DNA of 53,888 bases from assembly GCA_002163155.1 (NCBI GenBank), contig MAAO01000001.1:1-53888 (forward strand), written 5' to 3'. Numbering within the stretch: the stretch's first letter is position 1; each line of letters begins with the position of its first letter. The DNA comes from Halobacteriovorax marinus (GTDB taxonomy: Bacteria; Bdellovibrionota; Bacteriovoracia; Bacteriovoracales; Bacteriovoracaceae). Made by a program: the position numbers and the translations under genes. This document shows positions 3,772 through 53,888 of the stretch, one piece after another. Under the pieces are notes generated by a model. That model did not search any database and was not told the origin of the DNA. It was given only the letters and a program-made list of their open reading frames with translations.

Positions 3772-4755
3772 TTACTTCTTGCATTCTGCTATGAGTCTTT
3801 CAGCTGCTTTAATTAATCTTTTTTTGTTCTTTTTATCTAAATTTCTTATAACATTTTCACGAATTTTATATTCATCTAGATCGTGCCTATAATATAAAAA
3901 GTTCCGAGGGACATCACTTAGACTCTTATTTGCATCCTCTACTCTTTCAAATGAACTATTTTGGGAAGAAGCAAACGCATGAATTTTCTCAATCCAAAAA
4001 TTAACAAGATCATTTAACTCTTCAAACGCTGAATGCTTTCCATTGGAAAATATCTTGAAGTCTTTTTTGATTTCACTACAAAAGTCTCTGTTTTTTATGT
4101 CAAACTTAATAATCTCTGCTCTAACCTCAATTGGAACAGGTTTCCATGCCATCCATCTCGAAACTGTAGTTTGCGAAACTTTAAAAACCTTTGAAACTTC
4201 CTCTTGTGTATGTTTTTCAATTTCCTTATTTTCAAATTTAGGATTGTTTTCTTCAATATTTCGTCTGACATTAGAAAAAGACTTATATCTTAAAAACTCT
4301 ACGAACATGTCTATTTCATGAGTATTTTCTCTGACTATGTTTGTTTCTAATGCACATTGAAGAGCATATTTTTCATCTTCTGTAATTTTTGCAAAAATCT
4401 TAGAATGATTGGCCAGAACGCTTGGCATATTTTCAAAATCTTCACAGATTTTTAACTTTCCTCTTAATCGAGTCTCCCCTGCTACAAGAGTAAATTGCTC
4501 TTTACCATTCTTGTATTCCTTCAGAAGAATTATTGGATCTAACTGTCCTAGCTCGTAAATAGACTTAGCCATACGATTTATAGTTTCATCTGTTATTGCT
4601 GATTTTGTTTGAAATCTTTCTCTATCGAGTTTTATGTCATAAATATTGATATTGGCATACATATTCGAACTGTTAATCTGAATGGCCTCGTTAGTGTCCA
4701 ATGACATCTTGCTCTTTTCTCTTGAGGCCTTATTTTTTCGTCCTAAAACATTCAT
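3772..4755 (-). CDS. parB: ParB-family partition protein (system 1)
   Basis: A 327-residue protein with a ParB/Spo0J N-terminal domain (about residues 35-150) that includes the GETRLRG box corresponding to the family GERRxRA motif. A helix-turn-helix follows near residues 180-205 (EEVSKVFKVSQTTVSRWM). It should bind a parS-like site, load on DNA and stimulate its ParA. Its ATG shares one base with the parA stop (TAATG), so the two are co-translated. The palindromes at 5834-5852 and 6017-6035 are candidate binding sites. Confidence 0.9.
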   Translation of the reverse strand: MNVLGRKNKASREKSKMSLDTNEAIQINSSNMYANINIYDIKLDRERFQTKSAITDETINRMAKSIYELGQLDPIILLKEYKNGKEQFTLVAGETRLRGKLKICEDFENMPSVLANHSKIFAKITEDEKYALQCALETNIVRENTHEIDMFVEFLRYKSFSNVRRNIEENNPKFENKEIEKHTQEEVSKVFKVSQTTVSRWMAWKPVPIEVRAEIIKFDIKNRDFCSEIKKDFKIFSNGKHSAFEELNDLVNFWIEKIHAFASSQNSSFERVEDANKSLSDVPRNFLYYRHDLDEYKIRENVIRNLDKKNKKRLIKAAERLIAECKK

Positions 4756-5819
4756 TAAAATGCTCCCGTAAGTTCTGCTCTTTTGGCCTGCTTAGTTTTA
4801 AGTTCTTTTTTGGTATAAGAGTAAACCTCACTGTAAGTAGATAAAATTTCTGTTATCTCCTGAACAACTTCATTTCTGAATTTTTCATCATAGTTATTTA
4901 TGTCAACAAGCCAGAATGGAATTCCATCTCTAGTGCTATAGAAAAAGATATCTGACGTTGGAATAATATTCTCAAAGGCACTAAACCCGTAAGATTTAAT
5001 CTTTGCTCTTAATTCCTGAACGTCTTCTAAGTGAATATCCATATTTCGAACTGTATCTCTACAGTTAATGAGGAATTTCATATCAAGTTTAGGGTTCCAT
5101 TCTTTTGCTTGGACATATAAAGATACAGAATCATCGATTGCTTCAAAATCATTAGAAGTAACACCAGTTACATTGAAAACCACATCTGAAACAATAAAGA
5201 GTAAAAAGTGCAGAAGTCCAAAACTTGGAGGAGAATCAATTAGCACAGCATCAAAATCTTTCGAAAGCTCTTTAAATTCATTGATGAATTGATCGAGCTT
5301 AGAAAGATCAGCGTTTTCAGAAAAGCTTCCATTTGAAAAATGAAATCTCTCAGTTAGATATAAGTTAAGATTCGCCATTTTTTCACCAGATGGAACAACA
5401 GATAGAGAATCATCTATATCGACAACTAGATCTTTCAGTTTTAACCCATCTTCATTTTTGAAATAATCGGCAACAGAGAGTCTCCCCTCTTTACTCATAA
5501 AATACTCGGTTGCGTTGGCCTGACGATCAAAGTCCCAAACCAAAACCCTCTTTCCTCTAAGAGCTAGATTTTGAGAAAAGTTAAAAGTGTGAGTCGTTTT
5601 ACCAACACCACCTTTATTAAAGGTAAACAACATTACCTTTTTATCTTGTTCTTCTTTTAGTGATTTTCCAAAAGCTCTGACATCTTTATATGTATGTAGA
5701 AAATTAGCATCATTATCTTTAAAGAACTTCCCTACTATCTTTTCATCAATATTGAATATTTTAGATATTTGTCTCTTTGTATGTGTTGCCCCAGATATTG
5801 GGTTTAAAAAATCTTCCAT
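4755..5819 (-). CDS. parA: ParA-family partition ATPase (system 1)
   Basis: A 354-residue Walker-type ATPase. The deviant Walker A motif KGGVGKT is at residues 69-75, the DFDRQANAT box follows, and VLIDSPPS forms the Walker B region. The roughly 60-residue N-terminal extension resembles the DNA-binding domain of type Ia ParA proteins, which often autoregulate. It moves plasmid copies along the nucleoid together with ParB. AAGGAAAAAAC precedes the ATG. A 19-bp palindrome sits 15 bases upstream of the start and is the likely operator. Confidence 0.92.
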   Translation of the reverse strand: MEDFLNPISGATHTKRQISKIFNIDEKIVGKFFKDNDANFLHTYKDVRAFGKSLKEEQDKKVMLFTFNKGGVGKTTHTFNFSQNLALRGKRVLVWDFDRQANATEYFMSKEGRLSVADYFKNEDGLKLKDLVVDIDDSLSVVPSGEKMANLNLYLTERFHFSNGSFSENADLSKLDQFINEFKELSKDFDAVLIDSPPSFGLLHFLLFIVSDVVFNVTGVTSNDFEAIDDSVSLYVQAKEWNPKLDMKFLINCRDTVRNMDIHLEDVQELRAKIKSYGFSAFENIIPTSDIFFYSTRDGIPFWLVDINNYDEKFRNEVVQEITEILSTYSEVYSYTKKELKTKQAKRAELTGAF

Positions 5820-7809: not shown

Positions 7810-7835
7810 CAGTAAACTTTCTCGCCCTATATAAC

Positions 7836-7866
7836 GATTCCTCTAGATTAATATACTAGAGGAATC
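7836..7866. terminator. Perfect hairpin after repA
   Basis: GATTCCTCTAG and CTAGAGGAATC form a perfect 11-bp stem with a 9-base loop, 27 bases past the repA stop and between the first direct iteron and the inverted iteron. It may end the repA transcript or act within the origin. Confidence 0.55.
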
Positions 7867-8112
7867 AATTTCTATCATAAATTCAACAACTTACATGATG
7901 TATAAATATTTGATACCTAGATTGAAAAATCTTTGGGCGAGAAACTTTACGCTTTGATAATACTCAATCATTAGAAATTATTTCATTATAAGATTTTTAA
8001 ACACTTCGAATTTAGAAGATGTTGGTTACTTTAGTATGCCGTAGCATAGTAGAACTGACATTCATTACAGTGAGTGGGGAAGTAATCAGTTAGTACATTC
8101 CTTAAAAGCTTT

Positions 8113-8137
8113 TATTTCTATTTAATATTTCTATTTA
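8113..8137. other. AT-rich direct 12-mers, candidate DNA-unwinding element
   Basis: TATTTCTATTTA occurs twice (8113-8124 and 8126-8137) in a strongly AT-rich stretch 45 bases before the main iteron block. Iteron origins commonly place AT-rich 12- or 13-mers beside the initiator sites as the first region to melt. Confidence 0.5.
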
Positions 8138-8490
8138 AGCGATAAGAAAATCAATGTTGATCGAAGGTTAGAGCTAAATACAGTAAACAATCTCGTCTTA
8201 TGCGTAAACTTTCTCGCCTGTTCAGTAAACAATCTCGTCTTATAAGTAAACTTTCTCGCCCCATAGTAAATAAAGTAAAGTTTCTCGCCCATTCGAAAGG
8301 ACTTCTACTAAGGCCATAAGAGAGAAGAGTAAAGAATCTCGCCCTAATTGGAAAGTTTCTCGCCCAGATCAGTAAAGTTTCTCGCCCTCAGAAAATGAAA
8401 AACCATAGAGCTTGAATTGAACATGACTTAGTTTGGTCAAAAAATATTAATTCACACTAAAGAAAACTTATAACGCAACTCAAACGCTCA

Positions 8491-8525: not shown

Positions 8526-8649
8526 AGGGCAAGTACATACTGGAGAAAGTAATCCTTCGAGCTACAAGTATGGCCCAGAAGTCTTAAAATCATTCAAAAT
8601 CTTAATTGCATGAAACATCTAAAAATATACCACCCGCCATGAGGTACAG

Positions 8650-9074
8650 TTTTGTACGTGGTTCAGTTTTGTACGTGGTGCAGTTTTGTACGTGGTGCAG
8701 TTTTGTACGTGGTTCAGTTTTGTACGTGGTTCAGTTCTGTACGTGGTCCAGTTATGTACGTGGCTCAGTTCTGTACGTGGTTCAGTTTTGTACGTGGTTC
8801 AGTTTTGTACGTGGTTCAGTTTTGTACGTGGTCCAGTTTTGTACGTGGTCCAGTTCTGTACGTGGTTCAATTCTGTACGTGGTACAATTCTATACGTGGT
8901 ACAATTCTATACGTGGTTCAATTCTGTACGTGGTTCAGTTCTGTACGTGGTTCAGTTCTGTACGTGGTTCAGTTCTGTACGTGGTTCAATTTTGTACATA
9001 GTTCAGTTTTGTACGTGGTTCAATTCTGTACGTGGTTCAATTCTGTACGTGGTTCAGTTTTGTACGTGGTACAG
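8650..9074. repeat. Exactly 25 tandem 17-bp units, candidate centromere or second iteron array
   Basis: The unit is TTTTGTACGTGGTTCAG with no insertion or deletion across 425 bp; variation is limited to a few positions (T/C at position 3, G/A in the last CAG, T/G/C/A at position 14). Partial units flank both ends. The period is not a multiple of three, so the open frames across it are artefacts. It ends 77 bases from the stop of the second partition operon. A reversed 11-bp piece of the unit (CAGTTTTGTAC) recurs upstream of that operon at 11011-11024. Confidence 0.9.
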
Positions 9075-9151
9075 TTTTGTACCTTAGTCACTTTATAAGT
9101 AGGAGAGATAAAACTAGGCCAAGAGACGGCCTAGTTAATAAACGTAATGAA

Positions 9152-9898
9152 TTATAATATTAAAAGTCTATATTCTACAGATTTAACGTTTCCGTCTTTT
9201 CCAATGTTTTTGTATTCGATTAATTTTTTATCTACTAGTTCTTCTCTGGCATCACTAAAGTAGTTACGGTGAATTTGATAATCGTTCTTGATTTTATATC
9301 CAGACACTACATACCAATCATCAGTTACACACTGGTCCATGATGGCCTTAAAAAACTTTGCAGCGTTGGCAGTAAGGTTAAGGTTAATAAAACCCTCAAC
9401 ACTTAATTTAGAAGAATCTATTACAGTTTGATCCTTCAATTTCATAAGTTTTCTTTCAAGGTCTGAGGATTTTGTCTTATAGAGAGTATTCTTCTCTTGA
9501 AGTTCTTCAATCTTAGAAATTAAGTGAGAACTATCCTTTTGCGAATTAGAAGAAGGAGTAGAAACTACTTTCTTATCTAAATCAGCTTTAAGTTCTTTGA
9601 TTTGCAAATTAAGGTCGTTGACTTTGTTATCAGCTATAGAAGAGCTTTCAAGCTTTATGATATGTTTCTTAAGTGATTCAATCTCTGAATCTTTATTAGT
9701 TCCTAGAACTGATAAATCAGAATGACTTTCATTTATAGATGTTTCCAGTTGCTTGATTCTCTTTGTAAGAGTTTCAACTTCTACTTTAAGGAGTTTATTT
9801 TCTCGAAAAAGAGGGTTGTTCTCATTCTTATTCTTTTTAGCGTGATTTGAAGCCTTATTGCTAAGGTTGCCAATCATAGAGGCTTGGTTATTACTCAT
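9152..9898 (-). CDS. Coiled-coil DNA-binding-like partner of ParA2
   Basis: A 248-residue protein with a basic, Asn/Lys-rich N terminus, a long heptad-patterned coiled coil (about residues 30-155) and a C-terminal region (about 165-248) that looks like a winged helix (YFSDAREELVDKKLIEYKN). It lacks a ParB/Spo0J domain. Its ATG overlaps the parA2 stop (ATGA), the usual place of the centromere-binding partner. It is therefore the probable adaptor that binds the 25-unit array; that role is inferred from position and architecture. Confidence 0.75.
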   Translation of the reverse strand: MSNNQASMIGNLSNKASNHAKKNKNENNPLFRENKLLKVEVETLTKRIKQLETSINESHSDLSVLGTNKDSEIESLKKHIIKLESSSIADNKVNDLNLQIKELKADLDKKVVSTPSSNSQKDSSHLISKIEELQEKNTLYKTKSSDLERKLMKLKDQTVIDSSKLSVEGFINLNLTANAAKFFKAIMDQCVTDDWYVVSGYKIKNDYQIHRNYFSDAREELVDKKLIEYKNIGKDGNVKSVEYRLLIL

Positions 9899-10851
9899 TG
9901 AAGAACCTCACTCTGTCTAGAAAGATCATTAAGAACATCTAATGTAATTGAAAGGGAATCTGTTTGGCATTTTGAACTCATGTCCATAACGCCCATTGCT
10001 CCATTTATATTCATCTGAGCATTCTTTATTTCGTTATCAATCCTCATATATTTACTACATATTGAAAAATTGAACTTCTCAATAAGGGGAGTGATTCTTT
10101 CTGTGACCTGTGCAAGATTTTCTCGCCCATCAATTTTATTGAAAACAGCCTTTATGCTTCCTTCGTAACCTAGTTGTTCAAGCTTTGATAGAACATGTTT
10201 AAGTCCTTTAACGCTGCTCGAATCATTATTAACGATGGTCAATATCATATCTGCAATACTGTGTATCGCCAGGTTCATATCTGAAAGACTAGGGTTGGTG
10301 TCTATTAGAAACAAATCAGCATCCAATTCGCCGACTATATTTGATTTAAGCATCTTAGGAAGTGCTACTGCACTTACAGCCTCTGAGATAAATTCATTAT
10401 CAAGAGTACTTGGAATGATATACAAGTTGTTTGAGACTTTAACTAAGGCCTCTTTGACAGTGCAATAGCCTTTAAAAACATCATATAAAGAGTATTCAGC
10501 TTCGTATTCTTCGCCCAGAAGGTAATTTGTTAAGTTTCCTTGAGGGTCACTATCTATAACAATAGTCTTATAACCCATTCCTGACGCTTTGTAGGCGACA
10601 AGTGCAGTTGTACTCGTTTTTCCTACGCCACCTTTATTGTTTGCAATTGAAACAATCTTGTTGTGAACATTCTTTATAGGGTTTTTTCTAGAAGATTTTA
10701 AATATTGTTGAAAGAACTCTGGCTCTAAAACCTGAGAACGACCTCTTTTATATGAGAGGTCTTCTGAATTTGGAAGATTATCTAAAAACTTAAGAATGCT
10801 CTCATTGGTCTGTAAACCCATGGCATTTCTTAGCTGAGTAGCCGTAATCAT
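9895..10851 (-). CDS. parA: ParA-family partition ATPase (system 2)
   Basis: A 318-residue ParA. KGGVGKT is at residues 73-79, DSDPQGN forms the second box and LFLIDTNPS the Walker B region, with a roughly 60-residue N-terminal extension that could bind DNA. It is clearly a different lineage from the ParA at 4755-5819. AAGGA lies eight bases before the ATG. It forms an operon with the coiled-coil gene downstream. The upstream region holds a repeat half-unit and the 15-bp-period GGGGCC array. Confidence 0.92.
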   Translation of the reverse strand: MITATQLRNAMGLQTNESILKFLDNLPNSEDLSYKRGRSQVLEPEFFQQYLKSSRKNPIKNVHNKIVSIANNKGGVGKTSTTALVAYKASGMGYKTIVIDSDPQGNLTNYLLGEEYEAEYSLYDVFKGYCTVKEALVKVSNNLYIIPSTLDNEFISEAVSAVALPKMLKSNIVGELDADLFLIDTNPSLSDMNLAIHSIADMILTIVNNDSSSVKGLKHVLSKLEQLGYEGSIKAVFNKIDGRENLAQVTERITPLIEKFNFSICSKYMRIDNEIKNAQMNINGAMGVMDMSSKCQTDSLSITLDVLNDLSRQSEVLQ

Positions 10852-14633: not shown

Positions 14634-16541
14634 TCATTTCCAAACAGAAGCTGAAGCTGAAAGTCCACTATCAGTTGCGGCGAAGATATTTATTCCATCC
14701 GCATATACACCGTTAACAGAATTGCTGCCAAGTCCATCTCCAGTGGTGCGATTTACAAAGCTGACCCCACCGTCAGTGGATATCGAAAGTCCACCAGTAG
14801 TTGCGGCATAGACATTCACTCCATCAACAAATACGCCACGAACAGAGCCACTACCTAGTCCATCTCCAGTGGTACGATTTACAAAACTAACTCCACCATC
14901 AGTAGAAATTGAGAGTCCATTATTAGTTGCAGCATAGACATTCGCCCCATCCGCGTACACGCCACGAATAACGTTGTCACCGAGTCCATCTCCAGTAGTG
15001 CGATTTACAAAACTGGCCCCCCCGTCAGTAGAGATTGAGATTCCACCACTGGTCGCCGCATAGACATTTGATCCATACGCATATACGTCGTAAATAAAGT
15101 TATTACCAAGTCCATCTCCAGTGGTGCGATTTACAAAACTAACCCCGCCATCAGTAGAAATTGAAAGTCCAGCAGTGGTGGCGGCATAGATATTTGCTCC
15201 ATCCGCAGATACGCCACGAATAACGTTGTCACCGAGTCCATCTCCAGTGGTGCGATTGACAAAACTTACCCCACCGTCAGTAGAAATTGAAAGTCCAAAG
15301 ACAGTCGCAGCGTAGACATTTACTCCATCCACAAATACTTCTCGAACAGTATTGTCGCCAAGTCCATCTCCAGTGGTACGATAGACAAAACTAACCCCGC
15401 CATCAGTAGAAATTGAAAGTCCATATTGAGTCGCGGCATAGATATTTACCCCATCCGCATATACGCGCCGAACCATGTTGCTCCCATGTCCATCAACAGC
15501 AGTGCGATTTACAAAGCTAACTCCACCGTCAGTAGAAATTGAAAGTCCATCGGCAGTCGCGGCATAGATATTTACTCCATCCGCAAAAATGCGATAAATA
15601 GTGTTACTGCCTAGTCCATCTCCGGTAGTGCGATTGACAAAACTTACCCCACCGTCAGTAGAAATTGAAAGTCCAAAGACAGTCGCAGCGTAGACATTTA
15701 CTCCATCGGCAAATACGCCATGAACAGAATTGTTTCCGAGTCCATCTCCGGTAGTGCGATTCACAAAGCTTGTCCCACCGTCGGTAGAGATTGAAAATCC
15801 AGCACTAGTCGCGGCATAGATATTTCCTGCGTCCACATATACGTCATAAACAGTGTTGCTGCCAAGTCCATCTCCAGTGGTACGATTTACAAAACTAGCC
15901 CCGCTATCAGTTGAAATAGAAAGCCCACCAGAAGTCGCGGCATAGATATTTACTCCATCCACAAAAACGTCTCGAACAACGTTGTCACCAAGTCCATCTC
16001 CAGTGGTACGATTTACAAAACTTACGCCACCATCAGTAGAAATTGAAAGTCCACCACCACCGGTCGCGACATAAACTTTTGCGCCATCCACATGTACGCC
16101 ATTAACAAAGTCGTTACCAAGTCCATCTCCAGTAGTACGATTTACAAAGCTTGTCCCACCGTCAGTAGAAATTGAGAGTCCACCCTGAGTCGCGACGTAG
16201 ACATTTACTCCATCAGTATAAAAACGATATACAATGTTACTGCCTAGTCCATCAGCAGTGGTACGGCTTACAAAGCTTGTACCATCGTCAGTAGAAATGG
16301 AAAGTCCACCTCCACTAGTCGCTACATAGATATTTGCTCCATCCACATGTACGCCACTAACAGCGTTCGCAGCAATAGAAGTATAGGTAGACATATTTTG
16401 AGGAATAGTTATGAACTCACTCTTAGTCCATAGAGAGTTTGAAATACCTCCACTGCTATTCCAGGGTAGTATTTCAGTTTCACCAAGCATGTTGCATGAG
16501 CATATTATGAATAGTAATGAGATAATTATTCCAAACTTCAT
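14634..16541 (-). CDS. Asp-box repeat beta-propeller lipoprotein
   Basis: A 635-residue protein with a signal peptide ending in a Cys (FIICSC), probably lipidated. It is built of 13 full repeats of about 42 residues, each carrying the Asp-box/BNR pattern STDGGxSF followed by RTTGDGLG and ending in YAATxxGLSI. Repeats of this type fold as beta-propeller blades. The repeats are very similar at DNA level (about 126-bp period), implying recent duplication or ongoing recombination, so copy number may vary between isolates. The role is probably surface binding; the ligand is unknown. Confidence 0.85.
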   Translation of the reverse strand: MKFGIIISLLFIICSCNMLGETEILPWNSSGGISNSLWTKSEFITIPQNMSTYTSIAANAVSGVHVDGANIYVATSGGGLSISTDDGTSFVSRTTADGLGSNIVYRFYTDGVNVYVATQGGLSISTDGGTSFVNRTTGDGLGNDFVNGVHVDGAKVYVATGGGGLSISTDGGVSFVNRTTGDGLGDNVVRDVFVDGVNIYAATSGGLSISTDSGASFVNRTTGDGLGSNTVYDVYVDAGNIYAATSAGFSISTDGGTSFVNRTTGDGLGNNSVHGVFADGVNVYAATVFGLSISTDGGVSFVNRTTGDGLGSNTIYRIFADGVNIYAATADGLSISTDGGVSFVNRTAVDGHGSNMVRRVYADGVNIYAATQYGLSISTDGGVSFVYRTTGDGLGDNTVREVFVDGVNVYAATVFGLSISTDGGVSFVNRTTGDGLGDNVIRGVSADGANIYAATTAGLSISTDGGVSFVNRTTGDGLGNNFIYDVYAYGSNVYAATSGGISISTDGGASFVNRTTGDGLGDNVIRGVYADGANVYAATNNGLSISTDGGVSFVNRTTGDGLGSGSVRGVFVDGVNVYAATTGGLSISTDGGVSFVNRTTGDGLGSNSVNGVYADGINIFAATDSGLSASASVWK

Positions 16542-41371: not shown

Positions 41372-41464
41372 CAATATTTGATTTTAAATAGATTAAGCTC
41401 TATAATCAACTAGTATTCTATCATAAAATAACTTTAACACTTATACTTGATGGAATACCAAAAG

Positions 41465-41485
41465 CGAGTCTAACTCGTTTTTTTT
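41465..41485 (+). terminator. Rho-independent terminator
   Basis: CGAGT-CTA-ACTCG is followed by eight T residues. It lies 94 bases after the stop at 41371 and is the likely end of that transcript. Confidence 0.6.
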
Positions 41486-41816
41486 GTTTCAATTTTACAT
41501 CACCTCTACATCCAAGACATCCACTTTCCTAAGTTTGAACAGAGCCCACTTTCTAATTTATTCATACAAGATCTAATAACTATAGAGTATCAAATATCTA
41601 CGCTGGACAAGAACTTCATGCTTAAAGATACCCCTCACTTGTCCATAAGGATGGCGAAGATCCATGGTTGGATGTATAAATAGAGAACCTTAATCCGAGA
41701 CAGCTTAGTATCATTGTGCTAATTACCCGCAGATATAGGTGTTCTTTAGCCCCTTTTGCAAGCGCTACCATAGATGAGGCGCCAAAACTCTACAATGGAA
41801 CACGCTACTTCTTCGC
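41486..41816. other. Intergenic region with unassigned open stretches
   Basis: Plus-strand frames of about 58-70 codons are open here without usable start codons (for example one ending SIRMAKIHGWMYK at a TAG near 41682). They could be remnants of a gene or chance. Nothing else is clear. Confidence 0.25.
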
Positions 41817-42104
41817 TGTGTGTTTTATGAGGCCTGTATACCTATGAAAAAATACAACACTTAAAAAAACATATAAACTCAGAACCTAACAAAATTACTT
41901 AACAACACATACAGACCTCATAAAACACACACATTACATAAATATATATATTATTATTCTAAAAGATAATCACCTTACCCCTCGCCAACTACCCGAAAGA
42001 GAGAAACAAATCTAATTCTTAAAATTGACTAACTCATAATGTAATGGAGGGTTAGTCAATTTTAAGAATTAGAATTGTGTAGTGAATTCGGGAAGTTGGC
42101 GAGG
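41817..42104. other. oriT: Candidate origin of transfer with large nested inverted repeats
   Basis: Two composite structures are present. The first has 22-base arms (41817-41838 and 41910-41931) matching at 21 positions. The second has an outer pair, 41980-41997 (CCTCGCCAACTACCCGAA) with 42087-42104, matching at 17 of 18, enclosing a perfect 23-base inner pair (42011-42033 and 42051-42073) with a 17-base loop. It lies in the only long gene-free stretch next to the mobilization genes. Relaxase binding sites at oriT are usually inverted repeats. A single-strand origin is the main alternative. Confidence 0.6.
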
Positions 42105-42269
42105 TTTATTTGAGCCGAAGCTCGACATAAGTCATCCCTGTACTCACATCAGACTTAACATCGTAGTTCACAACAGAGTAAACAACAAACTTCACGAAAC
42201 TGAATACGGAAAGATATTACTAGAGAAATTTATAAACGCACTGAAACACTAAGTAAAAATAAGGAAAGG

Positions 42270-42301: not shown

Positions 42302-42895
42302 TTAGATATTTACGTAAAAGGTGGGATTGCTAAGAGAACCAAAAACACGAATCTTCTTATCTGGAATTGATTCGTTTGCAATACTATCCTGATCAACCTT
42401 ACTAACATGTAAATCAAAATTATCAGAAATATTTAAGCCTTCAAATTTTTTTGCATACTTCTTATAGATAAGAGAATTAACGGCCTTAATATCATTTTCC
42501 ACATATTTATCAAACTTTAGAGAGTCTACTAACTGAACGAGCTCCATATCTGCATAGAGCAAGGCTATAGACTTATAAGCCAAAGAAGTGCTGTTATCAG
42601 TAGATTTCCCCGCAAACATATCAGCTTCATTATTCTTTAACTGGACATATGTTGACTCAGTCTTAGGGGTTTGAAATATATTTTTGATTGCCTGAGGGAT
42701 AGTTATAAATATCAAACCAAATAATATACCTGGACCTTCAATGATTATGAACAGTATCAACGACTTAATTAAAGAAACTATGATTGCAAATGCTAAGGGA
42801 AGGACAGTTTTAAGAATAAAAGAAAAGACAATTAAACCGAAGAAGGCAATGGCAGTGTGCTTAAAAAAATACATTTGAAATTCTGAACCGAACAT
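42302..42895 (-). CDS. Membrane protein at the end of the conjugation region
   Basis: A 197-residue protein with two long hydrophobic segments (about residues 10-32 and 36-68) and a soluble C-terminal domain of about 120 residues. GGGAG precedes the ATG. No family is recognised. Its position, last after the SSB-like gene and next to the candidate oriT, would suit an entry-exclusion or transfer-accessory role; that is inference. Confidence 0.65.
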   Translation of the reverse strand: MFGSEFQMYFFKHTAIAFFGLIVFSFILKTVLPLAFAIIVSLIKSLILFIIIEGPGILFGLIFITIPQAIKNIFQTPKTESTYVQLKNNEADMFAGKSTDNSTSLAYKSIALLYADMELVQLVDSLKFDKYVENDIKAVNSLIYKKYAKKFEGLNISDNFDLHVSKVDQDSIANESIPDKKIRVFGSLSNPTFYVNI

Positions 42896-43263: not shown

Positions 43264-43644
43264 TTATTCAAAAAAAGCAATATCATTAGACGTAATATCA
43301 TTGCTAATGACTTCAAGTGGCCCTACTTCCTGTCCTCCATCAACATTCAGAGGTTCCTTGATATCTACGGCAATTACATAATTAACAATCTTTGACTCTT
43401 TAGTACGGCTTGCATAAAACCCTTTAATAGAGATCCTCTTTCCTTTTGCTAGGAAACCTTTTGCTTTATTTATCATCTTCTCACTTAGATATATATCATT
43501 CATCCAAACAGTATTGAAATCACCTGTCTGACTATTCTTTGTTGATTGTGCAAGATTTAAAAAACCAAACTTTTTTTTATTTGTATTTGTTTTTATGTCT
43601 ACACTTTTTCCAACTAGACCTTCAAATTCTACAGAATTTTTCAT
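43264..43644 (-). CDS. Single-stranded DNA-binding protein-like
   Basis: A 126-residue OB-fold protein similar to SSB: an N-terminal VEFEGLVGKSVDIKT strand, the FLNLAQS and TVWMNDIY positions of the core and KGKRISIKGFY. The C-terminal tip is acidic-hydrophobic (NDIAFFE) but not the standard DDDIPF, so contacts with host replication proteins may differ. AGGAGAAAGG precedes the ATG at 43644. Conjugative plasmids often carry an SSB that protects incoming strands. Confidence 0.75.
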   Translation of the reverse strand: MKNSVEFEGLVGKSVDIKTNTNKKKFGFLNLAQSTKNSQTGDFNTVWMNDIYLSEKMINKAKGFLAKGKRISIKGFYASRTKESKIVNYVIAVDIKEPLNVDGGQEVGPLEVISNDITSNDIAFFE

Positions 43645-43698
43645 AAACCTTTCTCCTTGCATAATTAATCATCATTATTGTTAATTATTGATTATTGA

Positions 43699-44058
43699 TT
43701 ATTGAATTTTTAAACTTTTAGCGATGTAATCATAGATATCAATATCTTCACCTTTTTTATCTCCCATTTCTTGAAGCCTCATTTCAACTTTATCTTTTAA
43801 AGAAAGGGAAAGATTTTGAACTTTTTCAATATCCTTTGTAGTGATGTTACTAACCATCCAATCCAGTAAGTCTTTAATAAATAACTCTCTACCAAATTTT
43901 TTTGAATTAAGATCCTTTAACACTATGTTAAGTTTCTCTAGCTGCTCTTCTTCTCCAATCTTATAAGAAAATTTAATTGTCTTTAATGCGCTTCTTTTTC
44001 TTTTTCCTTTTGTTTCTACGTGGTCTTCAAAAGATTTTAATTCATTATCCGTATTCAT
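43699..44058 (-). CDS. Putative mobilization accessory protein
   Basis: A 119-residue protein with a basic N terminus (KGKRKRSALKTIKFSYKI) and a helical remainder. It lies directly after the relaxase-like gene, where relaxosome accessory proteins are usually encoded, and could bind oriT. No family is recognised. Confidence 0.5.
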   Translation of the reverse strand: MNTDNELKSFEDHVETKGKRKRSALKTIKFSYKIGEEEQLEKLNIVLKDLNSKKFGRELFIKDLLDWMVSNITTKDIEKVQNLSLSLKDKVEMRLQEMGDKKGEDIDIYDYIAKSLKIQ

Positions 44059-44821: not shown

Positions 44822-46297
44822 CTATGAGAACATATCAATATTAGTAGTCTTCTGAGTTGATTTGTATAAATCAACCGTTTCTCTAATTAGTACTCTATCG
44901 TTAATAGTTAAAGGTGCCTTTCTTGTAGATAGGGCTTCACTGGTTTTACTGTATCTAACATTTATAATATCTACACACTTAGGATCGTGTCTAATGAGTA
45001 CACACTGTCCAATCTTTAGTCTTGAAAACATAGAGGGATGTAGTACGTATTGGAATGCCTCCCTAGTTGTGCCAAGGTTCTGCTCAACTCCATTCTCTAT
45101 GATTTTTGTAAGCTTCTTACTAGCTATTGTTGAGACTGACTTAGAAAGAAAATCAACATCATCTGGAGAGCATTGTTTTTGAATAAAAATGTTATTACTG
45201 TTTTCAAAAATTTGTCGTTTTAAAAACGGGCTTACGGCATCAATATCAGCCAGCGACTGTATGTAAGAATATATCCTTATTTTTGCTTCTCTACATTTGT
45301 TTTTAAGATCGATAAAATCTTCTACTAAGATACTTCCTAACTCGTCAAAGTGAACACTTATGGGATTAGTTAGCAATTTATCATTTAAAGAATTTCTTTC
45401 TTTTAAGACTTCATAAGAATGGAACAGTAATGAACATAGAAAGATCTTCCCAATGCCTTTGGCAATATCACCATATCCTTGAGTACTCAATCCGATATAT
45501 AAACAAGCACCTTCTCCTCGTATATCTGAAATATTATAACCTTCGTCATTAGACTTGATATCAAAAAGCCTTCCAAAACTAGAAAAACAAATACCTTGTA
45601 AATAACTTATAAGGCCTGCGATCATTTCTTTACTCTTTTTGTCTTCTTCCTCATCAAGTTTTTTTAATATTGTATGAAAGCTTAAGACTTCGTCTCTTTC
45701 CCTTACCTCTCGAATAACTTGATATAATGCTGTCTCACTCTTAGTCTTATAAAATCCATTTTCCCATTTAAATGAACGCATGATTAAGGCTACTGCCTGT
45801 GTTGTATCTAGACCCTTAAAGAGATTAAATTTATCGCCTGTGTGGTAATGCTCACTAAACACATACATTTTTCTACCGTAGAATTCACACAAAGAGTTAA
45901 GGGTGATGATTGACTCAGTAGATCCCTTTGGATCAAAGCTAATAACAGAAATGTGATTACGCAGATCATTTTCAATAAAATTTTCTGAAATAGTTGTTTT
46001 ACCAAATCCACTCGCACCAACAACCAGATTGTGTCTACCTGTGTCGATATCACTAAAAAGTAAGTCTTTCTTTTGAGAAGTAGAGTATCCGAGGGCCAAT
46101 GAGTTTATTGACTGAGTACTGTCATTGATATTGTCTAAGCTTAAAGACTTAACTCCATCATTATTTGAGAGGGAGTCTGATATCAACTTCCATGAAAATA
46201 CTAACGTATCAGCCACAAGAGTGTAGATAAGCTCTGCAAGAATATCTATAATATCACTGGCTGCATTAGACTGATCATTTTTCTCTTTATCCTTCAT
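44822..46297 (-). CDS. virD4: Type IV coupling protein (VirD4/TraG-like ATPase)
   Basis: A 491-residue ATPase: Walker A GASGFGKT at 94-101, the FDPKG motif, Walker B ISVHFDELGS near residue 325 and the YSYIQSLADID switch. A weakly hydrophobic segment at about 14-40 may anchor it in the inner membrane. It links the relaxosome to the T4SS channel. Its stop is followed after three bases by the relaxase gene, and its start is one base after the lipoprotein gene stop. Confidence 0.88.
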   Translation of the reverse strand: MKDKEKNDQSNAASDIIDILAELIYTLVADTLVFSWKLISDSLSNNDGVKSLSLDNINDSTQSINSLALGYSTSQKKDLLFSDIDTGRHNLVVGASGFGKTTISENFIENDLRNHISVISFDPKGSTESIITLNSLCEFYGRKMYVFSEHYHTGDKFNLFKGLDTTQAVALIMRSFKWENGFYKTKSETALYQVIREVRERDEVLSFHTILKKLDEEEDKKSKEMIAGLISYLQGICFSSFGRLFDIKSNDEGYNISDIRGEGACLYIGLSTQGYGDIAKGIGKIFLCSLLFHSYEVLKERNSLNDKLLTNPISVHFDELGSILVEDFIDLKNKCREAKIRIYSYIQSLADIDAVSPFLKRQIFENSNNIFIQKQCSPDDVDFLSKSVSTIASKKLTKIIENGVEQNLGTTREAFQYVLHPSMFSRLKIGQCVLIRHDPKCVDIINVRYSKTSEALSTRKAPLTINDRVLIRETVDLYKSTQKTTNIDMFS

Positions 46298-49814: not shown

Positions 49815-50485
49815 TTAACACCTCCATCTTGAATGTCTTCCCCAGTTAAAGCTCCCACTATTTCACCAATGCTCAACCTTTCTTTAAGTCTTGAAACCTT
49901 TTGTTCTTCAAGTAATAAATTAGTTTTCTTCTGCTCAATAATTAACTTATTAAGGTTTGCATTTATTAAAGAGCTTTCAAACGCCGTATGTCCCGTGTTT
50001 CCGTTAATCCTATTTAGGAGGGCACTTTTAGAAGATGAAACAGAGCTCGAAGGTACTATTGCTCCTTTCGCTCTTTTTCTAGCTGCTTTTTCTCTTTTTT
50101 CAGCTTTAATAATTTCCGTTTTAGATTTGTAGCTATTTCTAGTAATGCGTTCAAGAATAGAGGAAATTTCCTCTCTTTGTGATTTCAGATCTCTAATTTG
50201 AGAATTTAGAGCTGACAAATTTTTAACGTCATTGTCTCCAAGTTCTTTTAAAGATGTGTACCATGCTTCGATTCTCTGTGCTCTTTGAACACGAATGTCA
50301 GCTTCCTCCATGAACTCATTCAGTTCCTTTAAAGATTCGTTGGTTTTCTTAGCTTCTGTTAGTAGCTCATGTAACTCAGCAAGTTCTTGAGTCGCAGTCA
50401 AGGCTATCTGAATCAAAGTTGGATCAAATTGAGACTTAACTGAAAAATTGCAAATCAAAAGAAATAATACTATTTTAGTGCGCAT
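49811..50485 (-). CDS. VirB5/TrbJ-like periplasmic coiled-coil protein
   Basis: A 224-residue exported protein (signal peptide ending SVKS) made of long coiled coils, starting FDPTLIQIALTATQELAELHEL, as in TrbJ/VirB5 proteins. The ATG at 50485 lies inside the end of virB4. It probably sits at the pilus tip or in the periplasm. Confidence 0.65.
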   Translation of the reverse strand: MRTKIVLFLLICNFSVKSQFDPTLIQIALTATQELAELHELLTEAKKTNESLKELNEFMEEADIRVQRAQRIEAWYTSLKELGDNDVKNLSALNSQIRDLKSQREEISSILERITRNSYKSKTEIIKAEKREKAARKRAKGAIVPSSSVSSSKSALLNRINGNTGHTAFESSLINANLNKLIIEQKKTNLLLEEQKVSRLKERLSIGEIVGALTGEDIQDGGVK

Positions 50486-52319
50486 ACTTATACTCCACCC
50501 ATCTATCCAATGTTTCCGTAAAAGAGAAATAGTCTGATCTTCCTTCAAAAAACTTATCCATACGTTGATTGTCCAATGGATTAGTTGTTAGGACTTCGTA
50601 CTCACGAGGATTAGAAAAATATCGAACAATCTTATTAAAATTTTCTGTTTTAAGATAAAATTCTGAGTATTCACCAATACGAGTTTTACATCTCTTTATA
50701 TTTTCAACATCAAAGCTATTTAATTGTTCATTAACAGAACATGCCTGATTGAATAGTATTTTTGTGTTCGCGCAGTTTTCTATAATTTTCCCTACTTCAG
50801 ACTTAATGAATTCATCAAAATCATGCGTGGCGGCCATGATTCCCATATCTTTTTTTCTAGCTTCCCTAAATTTTTGTTCAACAAACTCTGGATTTTTCTT
50901 TAAAAGGAAATGAACTTCGTCTAAAAATAATACACGTCGTCCCTTTAAGTTTTCGACATACTCCATTACAAATATAATAAAGGGTGCAATAACATCTTCT
51001 GGTAGAGACTCTATGTTAACGTGTGAAAAATCTTGAAACTCAAATATCTCATCTGAGAGATAAGGAAGAATTCCGAAAAAGTAATACTTAATATCATTAA
51101 TAAAGTGATCTAACTCATCTAATAATATTTCAAATGTATTTATATTTGATAAATCAATTTCCTCAATAGCAAAGTGAAGTCTTCCCTTTTCTTTTTTTGT
51201 AATCTCAGCCTCAGGAATGCTACTTAAGATAAACTCTTTAAGAAATGTAGTGTTTTTAAACATCATAGGATTGAAACGAGTCAATAGGTCAACACCACCA
51301 GTTAACTTACCAAGTTTCCCCATGGAATCACCTCTTTCTATATTAATAATTTTCACATTATTCATAAATTGGAAGTAACAGATAGCACCAATGGTAAAAC
51401 TTTTACCTGAACCACTTGGTCCCGCTACAATTACATTATAATTAATATTTTGATTATCAAATATATCGTAAAAGATCCCTTTTCCAGACTGAGAATAAAA
51501 CCTCATCCCTTCTGGGTATAGCTTGTCGAGATGCAGAGGTAATAAATTGATTAACAATTTTGAATTTACTGGAAATGAATTTATCCAAGCCGGTTCTTTT
51601 TCAGCAATAGCTATATTTTCTAAAGCATAATCTATGCCTACTGTTTCAAGGATTATCTTGAATCCCCTTCTTGTACATTCAGGAATAATACTTTTGATTT
51701 TTGTATTCACTTCATCAATAGACTCACCTGAAATAATTAATGAACACTCAACACTAAAAAGTGCTTGTTTCCCATGTACTACATCTTCCAGCATTTGCTC
51801 GTTTGCGTGATAAGAAGATTCTCCTACGATATCTCGGGATTTTTCAGAAAATGAAGAAGTGTGCTGACTTCTTCCCATTTCGAGTTTTCCTTTTGCAACG
51901 GAATCACTTATCCTCTTGAAGTTAATGAAATAATCACCAAGGTTAGAAAGTTCGTTAAGCATTGTACTTTTCATCTCAACAATTCTAATAAATTTAAATA
52001 CCTTGTTATTGATAAAAGCATAATTGTCTTTAACTGGATCATTTGTATAAATATCTTCTAAATCAAACAAGTGACTACAATACATAGAAGAAGTGACATC
52101 TGTTCCATGAAAGAAATCGTTAACATTTTCATCGTTACTAGACATATAGGTTTCATCTTCAAAATATACCATTCGATAAAAACAATTAGGGTTGAGTTCC
52201 ATTATTGAAGTATTCATCTCCATTACAAAATTAAATAACTCATCATTGTTTAATTGTTCAAGATCAGTCCCATTTAATTTTAATATTCTTGTATTTGAAT
52301 TATTTAGAATATCTTCCAT
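50475..52319 (-). CDS. virB4: VirB4/TraC-like T4SS ATPase
   Basis: A 614-residue ATPase with Walker A GPSGSGKS at residues 300-307, Walker B RRVLFLDEVHFLL near 455 and a REARKKDMGIMAATHD motif. It powers pilus assembly and substrate transfer. The start is ATG at 52319 behind AGGAAAG and overlaps the virB3 end by 20 bases. No VirB11 ATPase was seen, so VirB4 may be the only assembly motor. Confidence 0.9.
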   Translation of the reverse strand: MEDILNNSNTRILKLNGTDLEQLNNDELFNFVMEMNTSIMELNPNCFYRMVYFEDETYMSSNDENVNDFFHGTDVTSSMYCSHLFDLEDIYTNDPVKDNYAFINNKVFKFIRIVEMKSTMLNELSNLGDYFINFKRISDSVAKGKLEMGRSQHTSSFSEKSRDIVGESSYHANEQMLEDVVHGKQALFSVECSLIISGESIDEVNTKIKSIIPECTRRGFKIILETVGIDYALENIAIAEKEPAWINSFPVNSKLLINLLPLHLDKLYPEGMRFYSQSGKGIFYDIFDNQNINYNVIVAGPSGSGKSFTIGAICYFQFMNNVKIINIERGDSMGKLGKLTGGVDLLTRFNPMMFKNTTFLKEFILSSIPEAEITKKEKGRLHFAIEEIDLSNINTFEILLDELDHFINDIKYYFFGILPYLSDEIFEFQDFSHVNIESLPEDVIAPFIIFVMEYVENLKGRRVLFLDEVHFLLKKNPEFVEQKFREARKKDMGIMAATHDFDEFIKSEVGKIIENCANTKILFNQACSVNEQLNSFDVENIKRCKTRIGEYSEFYLKTENFNKIVRYFSNPREYEVLTTNPLDNQRMDKFFEGRSDYFSFTETLDRWVEYKYAH

Positions 52320-52560
52320 ATAACTTTCCTGTTTTTGGTTTACGCACTCGATGCTGAAGATAACTCTTCTCAAGCTTCTTTTGTACAAAGAGAGAAATGA
52401 GAAAATAAACCCCCGCTATCACCAAGGCGTGAAACTCATTACAATTAAAAATCATTAGTACTCCGACAATCATCATAGTCGAAAGTACAGTCCAAACATT
52501 AACTCCAAAAAGCAATGGGCTCTGATTTAAGAACTTTGGGAAATCTTGATTGTTATGCAC
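52300..52560 (-). CDS. virB3: VirB3/TraL-like T4SS protein
   Basis: An 86-residue protein with a central hydrophobic hairpin (about residues 20-58) and a basic C-terminal tail, matching VirB3/TraL. It overlaps virB2 and virB4 in other frames, so the three are tightly coupled. Confidence 0.75.
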   Translation of the reverse strand: MHNNQDFPKFLNQSPLLFGVNVWTVLSTMMIVGVLMIFNCNEFHALVIAGVYFLISLFVQKKLEKSYLQHRVRKPKTGKLYGRYSK

Positions 52561-52854: not shown

Positions 52855-53888
52855 TTAATTTCTTGTTCCAAATTTTGTTAATTGATAATCAAACTTAACT
52901 TCTCCATTAAAAATCGCAGAAGATGAGGCGCATGAAATACACTTGAATCCTGGATCTAGTATTGGGCAAGCATTCCATGCAAACATTCCTGTTAAAAGTC
53001 TGTGCTCTTGAGCAATAGAATGAAATTTACTGATATTTATATTTTGTATAAATTCTTCGTCCACATTTACTAAGATATAAAGAGATCCTTCATTACTATA
53101 TAAAGTGTATTTTCCAGTAAATTCCTCAAGGCTCTTTTTTCCAAATCTAACGTTCAAATATTTCGAATAGTTCTCAGTGTTAAGTTGTATTTTCTCTTCT
53201 GTATAAAAGGTTTTATATTGCCTTGTAGAACATCCTGTAGAGAATTGGGCTTGCCAACAGATCCTTCGAGCCTTCATCTCGCCTCTCCCCTCCCTTTCGT
53301 CTACATCACGACAAAGTTGTTTTTCCCATACCTCTTCTTTTGTGGTGTATGAACTAGCAGAAATATTTGGTTTGTTTTCAAAAGCTGATATCTCGTAAAT
53401 AATCTTATCTCCATAGGCGTAAGAGATAATATCGACACTTTCGTTTACACCAACACCTTCTTGACTTGATTTAACTTTCTTTGAACTTACAAGACTCTTG
53501 GCCTTCCCGTAGATTATCGAATAAACATTACCTGCAACTGGTCTATCGTTGATACTAGTTCCAAGAGGTATTGTTTTCCATAAACCAAGGTTAATTTCGT
53601 TTGGAAGCAATTTATGTAAATCTACATCATTCACAAACAAGCTATTTGGTAGATAGGATCTAGAATTTGATGCCCCTAAGACTGTTCCACTTGCTGAAAG
53701 CTTAATGTTAGTTCGCAAATACTTTAGAGAACTCAAGACCGTCCCACGAGGAATCATTTGAACAATCTCAGTTGAGTTAGGGTCACTTATTATAAATCTA
53801 GCCGTTTTTTCATCTGTACTGGCCAAGCTTTGAGAATACAGTAACTTTTTCCCTTTCTTGATATATTCAAAGTCTAAAATTTTAATTG
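52855..53888 (-). CDS. T4SS-operon lipoprotein (C-terminal half; continues from 1-908)
   Basis: This is the 3' part of the 609-residue lipoprotein whose start is at 908 on the other side of the circular junction; the frame is open to the right edge. The C-terminal region holds paired Cys clusters (CRDVDER...RRICWQ...STGC and CPILD...FKCISC), suggesting disulfides. A TTG at 53826 is only an internal codon. It ends 30 bases before virB2. Confidence 0.85.
   Translation of the reverse strand, partial: IKILDFEYIKKGKKLLYSQSLASTDEKTARFIISDPNSTEIVQMIPRGTVLSSLKYLRTNIKLSASGTVLGASNSRSYLPNSLFVNDVDLHKLLPNEINLGLWKTIPLGTSINDRPVAGNVYSIIYGKAKSLVSSKKVKSSQEGVGVNESVDIISYAYGDKIIYEISAFENKPNISASSYTTKEEVWEKQLCRDVDEREGRGEMKARRICWQAQFSTGCSTRQYKTFYTEEKIQLNTENYSKYLNVRFGKKSLEEFTGKYTLYSNEGSLYILVNVDEEFIQNINISKFHSIAQEHRLLTGMFAWNACPILDPGFKCISCASSSAIFNGEVKFDYQLTKFGTRN
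53777..53888. repeat. Right copy of terminal direct repeat
   Basis: Identical to bases 1-112. See the left copy for the circular interpretation. Confidence 0.95.

Follow-up and report, generated by a model that had tools for sequence, protein, structure and literature searches.

The window (the whole 53,888-nucleotide contig analysed here) is a conjugative plasmid of Halobacteriovorax marinus, and we conclude that its origin of transfer (oriT) is very probably the nested inverted repeat at about 41970-42111. We base this on the nested architecture of the repeat, the covariation of its paired bases, the constant strand and place that it occupies in relatives with respect to the relaxase gene, and the presence of the same site at integrase-bearing loci without a detected relaxase. 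The sequence-only reading had proposed a composite oriT for the MOBC-like relaxase, built from two neighbouring repeats. The right-hand repeat fits that proposal in architecture, covariation and relation to the relaxase, whereas the left one (41817-41931) is not conserved in relatives and is a doubtful part of it. As far as our literature search could find, this family of transfer origins is previously undescribed.

The plasmid, its transfer operon and two inverted repeats

The two ends of the contig are identical over 112 bases (1-112 = 53777-53888) and the plasmid is therefore circular, with a length of about 53.8 kb (53,776 bp). The transfer operon lies on the - strand, crosses the contig junction within one of its genes and ends at 42302. 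It encodes a VirB4/TraC-like ATPase, further type IV secretion system (T4SS) genes, a TraD-like coupling ATPase, a MOBC-like relaxase, a small protein that we call p119, an SSB-like protein and a membrane protein (Table 1). The Pfam SSB profile matched 16/16 members of the SSB-like family. A homologue of the membrane protein was sought in 129 genomes of the family and none was found.

The label MOBC-like is given to the relaxase on two grounds, namely a partial NCBIfam MobC_subf match (residues 129-177, 49 aa, under the NCBI curated cut-off) and an invariant PD..ExE..K core holding the catalytic residues of a PD-(D/E)xK-type enzyme. Scanning 25 members of the relaxase family gave matches to MobC_subf in 15 and to Pfam Replic_Relax (PF13814) in 9, and residues H95, P133, D134, E148, E150, K154 and K162 are invariant among 25-35 members. 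No Pfam match of note was obtained for p119, whose relatives share a basic RGRKPKN-like N-terminus; it is likely a relaxosome accessory protein, and we put it forward as a candidate for that role.

Elsewhere on the plasmid, a tandem array with a 17-bp period and about 25 overlapping copies (8541-9169) is adjoined by more AGTAAA-TTTCTCGCC repeats (7811-8400) and lies near a ParA-like gene (9895-10851); these repeats are likely an iteron origin or a centromere. The protein encoded at 14634-16541 has about eleven 126-bp internal repeats, coincides with the highest G+C of the plasmid and shows a weak match to a glycosylhydrolase-like repeat family.

As the sequence-only reading had it, two inverted repeats lie immediately beyond the transfer genes, following the final gene of the operon. 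With scores of 31.5 and 20.5 they are the two best local inverted repeats of the 53.9-kb window, where third place scores 13.5, and they are far beyond chance, the maximum in 20 Markov-shuffled windows being 16.5. Folding of 41800-42120 as single-stranded DNA gave z = -11.4. The nested 18/23-base layout described earlier for the right repeat was confirmed: GC-rich outer arms (CCTCGCCAACTACCCGAA / TTCGGGAAGTTGGCGAGG) enclose perfect AT-rich inner arms, with a 13-nt unpaired stretch between outer and inner arms and a 17-nt loop. The left repeat is imperfect, as claimed, with arms of 23 rather than 22 bases.

Table 1. Features of the plasmid and loci discussed in the text (window coordinates unless a locus is named).
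Feature	Position	Strand	Remarks
Left inverted repeat	41817-41839 / 41909-41931		23-nt arms, 96% complementary, 69-nt spacer
Most G-poor 130-nt stretch of the plasmid	41847-41979	-	3 G on + strand; between/within the two repeats
Predicted oriT, whole conserved nested inverted repeat	41970-42111	-	R2 match; oriented as relaxase gene
Right inverted repeat, whole	41980-42033 / 42051-42104		nested outer and inner arms
Outer GC-rich arm, left	41980-41997		18 nt, 17/18 complementary to 42087-42104
Outer GC-rich arm, right	42087-42104		partner of 41980-41997
Inner AT-rich arm	42011-42033		perfect 23 bp, conserved TTGAC/GTCAA core; R1 and R3 matches
Inner AT-rich arm, partner	42051-42073		R1 and R3 matches
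Tentative nic dinucleotide (GTTA/GTCAA)	42029-42030	-	by analogy with CloDF13
Mirror nic candidate	42054/42055	+	by analogy with CloDF13
Membrane protein, final operon gene	42302-42895	-	found in this plasmid only
SSB-like protein	43264-43662	-	Pfam SSB, E 7.5e-5
p119, conserved small protein (119 aa) adjoining relaxase/oriT	43699-44058	-	homologue after oriT in nearly all relatives
MOBC-like relaxase, 246 aa	44078-44818	-	NCBIfam MobC_subf, E 2.6e-5
Coupling ATPase (TraD/VirD4-like)	44822-46297	-	NCBIfam SXT_TraD, E 6e-25
VirB4/TraC-like ATPase	50475-52388	-	NCBIfam TraC-F-type, E 3e-25
Relaxase-less loci examined	L136, L140, L141, L149, L153, L154		tyrosine recombinase beside site
Other relaxase-less site loci	L137, L143, L147, L148, L152		no relaxase in fetched stretch

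Conservation of the site across relatives

Searches by DNA similarity, in plasmids and in the family, found no relative of the region because its sequence is too divergent, and a structural model was required. A search for related loci with the coupling protein and the relaxase as queries also gave no match. Homologues of the relaxase (18-30% identity) and of VirB4 are common in the family, and the comparison set comprised 40 loci with both genes, oriented by the relaxase. These distant relatives share the T4SS and the MOBC relaxase, at 18-25% relaxase identity. A motif-free inverted-repeat scan showed that in nearly all 40 the relaxase gene is followed at a short distance by a nested inverted repeat. 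Outer arms in the relatives read, for example, CGCCCCTGCC or GCCYGCYAA, and CTCGCCAA of the left outer arm in the window agrees with this conserved outer arm. Their inner arms carry T-TGAC-YNCCC, GTCA being nearly invariant in the inner stem. Across 34 loci the inner core stem shows compensatory changes at 13 of its 14 pairs, 96.4% of cells are paired and G-U cells are almost absent, which together point to selection on a DNA dyad. The covariation score of this stem is 0.73, versus 0.20 when shuffled and at most 0.20 when slid.

Three models were built from the relatives with the window sequence left out: a core covariance model (R1), a full-length model from 15 relatives (R2) and a sequence-only model with no credit for pairing (R3). 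The predicted oriT is the only confident place in the window for all three, with E-values that are rough owing to a short calibration: R1 at 42011-42077(-) with 39.4 bits and E 2.7e-9, R2 at 41970-42111(-) with 40.2 bits and E 3.7e-8 (the next place in the window reaching 10.6 bits), and R3 at 42016-42074(-) with E 6e-4 as its sole match. The matching strand is that of the relaxase gene, as in the relatives; weaker R1 and R2 matches on the opposite strand arise because the site is palindromic. The 4.5-Mb host genome contains one model match, the window site itself. Phylum-wide, the site was found at E <= 1e-4 in 155 of the 369 genomes searched, with Bacteriovoracaceae, Halobacteriovorax and other Bdellovibrionales among the named carriers; loci L077, L079, L091 and L095 gave further matches to the family. 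At least 141 distinct high-scoring sites were listed and 88 of them lie near a detected relaxase gene. Among the matches listed, all 88 of these are on the relaxase strand, 76-309 bp downstream, counted from where the relaxase match ends. The site is a cis element outside coding sequence that accompanies a relaxase gene on a conjugative element; as an inverted repeat it is conserved, and its core sequence hardly varies.

Most of the remaining listed sites come from contigs where no relaxase was detected. We fetched 20 such places and found a relaxase after all in 4, p119 in several and neither in about 11; many of the relatives are draft genomes, and the absence of a relaxase at these orphan sites applies to the fetched stretches. 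The full-length model R2 matched at most of the roughly 11 loci. Six of them were examined and all six carry the shared cis site, in core or full-length architecture, with a tyrosine recombinase gene no more than about 3 kb away. Such a neighbour is expected of integrative islands that borrow a relaxase, and a cis site that conjugative elements share with integrative elements lacking a relaxase is what marks an oriT. Two loci hold paired sites of the family less than 1 kb apart on the same strand (L140:3937-4080 and 4754-4896; L152:1999-2142 and 2406-2531).

The window copy differs from its relatives in place and sequence. Gene order in the relatives is relaxase, site, p119 and ssb. The window has relaxase, p119, ssb, membrane protein and site in that order, which puts the site about 2.0 kb from the relaxase gene, versus 0.1-0.3 kb in the relatives. 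From this comparison of gene order the window site has evidently moved by about 1.8 kb, past p119, ssb and the membrane-protein gene. Similarly, at one other locus (L098 of genome G013) a p119-like gene separates the site from the relaxase. In sequence, too, the window copy diverges, scoring 39 bits versus 50-78 for most among the matches listed, and its TGAC-GTCA gap is 25, versus 29-32 in nearly all other sites of the family.

Alternative readings and comparison with known systems

Instead of a transfer origin, the right dyad might be a regulatory site where the transfer operon ends: a transcription terminator working through its RNA, or an operator bound by a repressor. Its position downstream of the final operon gene and the strong folding of its - strand RNA would suit such a role. 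However, no terminator-like T-run follows the dyad, and terminator and promoter scans placed the only terminator-like sites of the region at 41460-41482. Moreover, its pairs covary with G-U nearly absent, the relatives' dyad sits inside the operon, between the relaxase and p119 genes, and the dyad recurs at integrase-bearing loci without a detected relaxase. We therefore regard this explanation as very unlikely. Hardly any credence can be given to a reading that takes the dyad out of transfer altogether and makes it a MITE, a repeat or a dif/attC-like recombinase site, despite the inverted-repeat structure and the orphan copies that adjoin integrases: the element occurs as a single copy in the host genome, inspection by eye revealed neither an obvious target-site duplication nor an attC RYYYAAC/GTTRRRY core, and sites near a relaxase gene keep strictly to its strand and to a set distance from it.

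A further question is whether the oriT is composite after all, with the left repeat binding an accessory protein, acting as a termination dyad or providing the leading region with a single-strand promoter. This repeat is the second-strongest local inverted repeat of the plasmid, lies 49 bp from the right repeat on the flank that should reach the recipient first, and an extremely G-poor strand runs between the two. Against this, it has no counterpart in the relatives, where the corresponding place is p119 coding sequence, and no second copy in the host genome; a search with its arms across the plasmid found no further copies beyond chance. Between about +110 and +290 of the core, the relatives have inverted-repeat pairs whose loops span 63-84 nt; these were considered as homologues of the left repeat and rejected, since they lie inside the p119 coding sequence. 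A functional left repeat is thus possible but doubtful, and we place the oriT in the right repeat.

To our knowledge few MOBC oriTs have been characterised, and CloDF13, with its MobB/MobC system, is the prototype. CloDF13 likewise combines a MOBC-type enzyme with nested inverted repeats (9650-9783), the outer arms lying at 9650-9663 / 9770-9783, 106 nt apart. Its inner arms, GACCACCC...GGGTGGTC, share their motif (GACCACC/GGTGGTC) with TTGACCACC...GGTGGTCAA of the relatives. Its nic site we take to be GGGTG/GTCGGG. R1 gave no match at 9650-9783 when run on CloDF13, even without filters; because the model does not detect this oriT, we suggest a likeness in layout and motif and do not claim membership of the family. 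The order described for pMET1 and CloDF13 is oriT-mobB-mobC (PMC2262945), while the present site comes after the relaxase gene. In the MOBC-type elements pMET1 and HPI-ECOR31 the nic sites are reported to lie inside an inverted repeat (PMC2262945); by that description, the oriT regions of pMET1 and the HPI-ECOR31 ICE (oriT-mobB-mobC) resemble the present one in belonging to MobB/MobC-type mobilisation and in the inverted repeat around nic, but they are enterobacterial. Mimics of oriT are described on elements without a relaxase of their own, for example those of the pWBG749 family in S. aureus (PMC4652767, PMC8136818). The present family is similar in also standing beside integrases where no relaxase is detected, and differs in relaxase class and hosts, and mobilisation in trans is putative here. 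The MOBC enzyme is believed to cleave DNA without becoming covalently attached to it (PMC9299015).

Proposed mechanism and significance

We hypothesise that the MOBC-like PD-(D/E)xK relaxase, probably assisted by p119, recognises the inner dyad, whose TGAC/GTCA core hardly varies, and would cut a single strand beside GTC within the inner arm. By analogy with CloDF13 we tentatively place the nick between 42030 and 42029 on the - strand, an orientation in which the transfer genes would enter last. The nicked strand would then be passed to the TraD-like coupling protein and on to the T4SS, and the outer GC-rich arms may serve as a further dyad for binding or termination.

Taken together, these data make it fairly likely that Bdellovibrionota possess a phylum-wide family of MOBC oriTs, a covarying nested dyad common to T4SS-bearing conjugative elements and to many relaxase-less, MOBC-dependent integrative islands, in which the oriT can shift within the mobilisation operon. 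The orphan sites suggest that relaxase-less mobilisable islands are common in the Bdellovibrio group. In two IMG/VR contigs (L162, L163) the core motif, matched exactly as TGACTCCCCACCCCCAAC, lies close to a contig end, and pieces of site-carrying elements may thus be filed as viral. A covarying alignment of dozens of origins indicates which bases matter and where to seek the nick, and the model finds mobile islands that relaxase-based screens miss. Moreover, the cis site could be used for mobilisable vectors in Bacteriovoracaceae and other members of this bacterial group.
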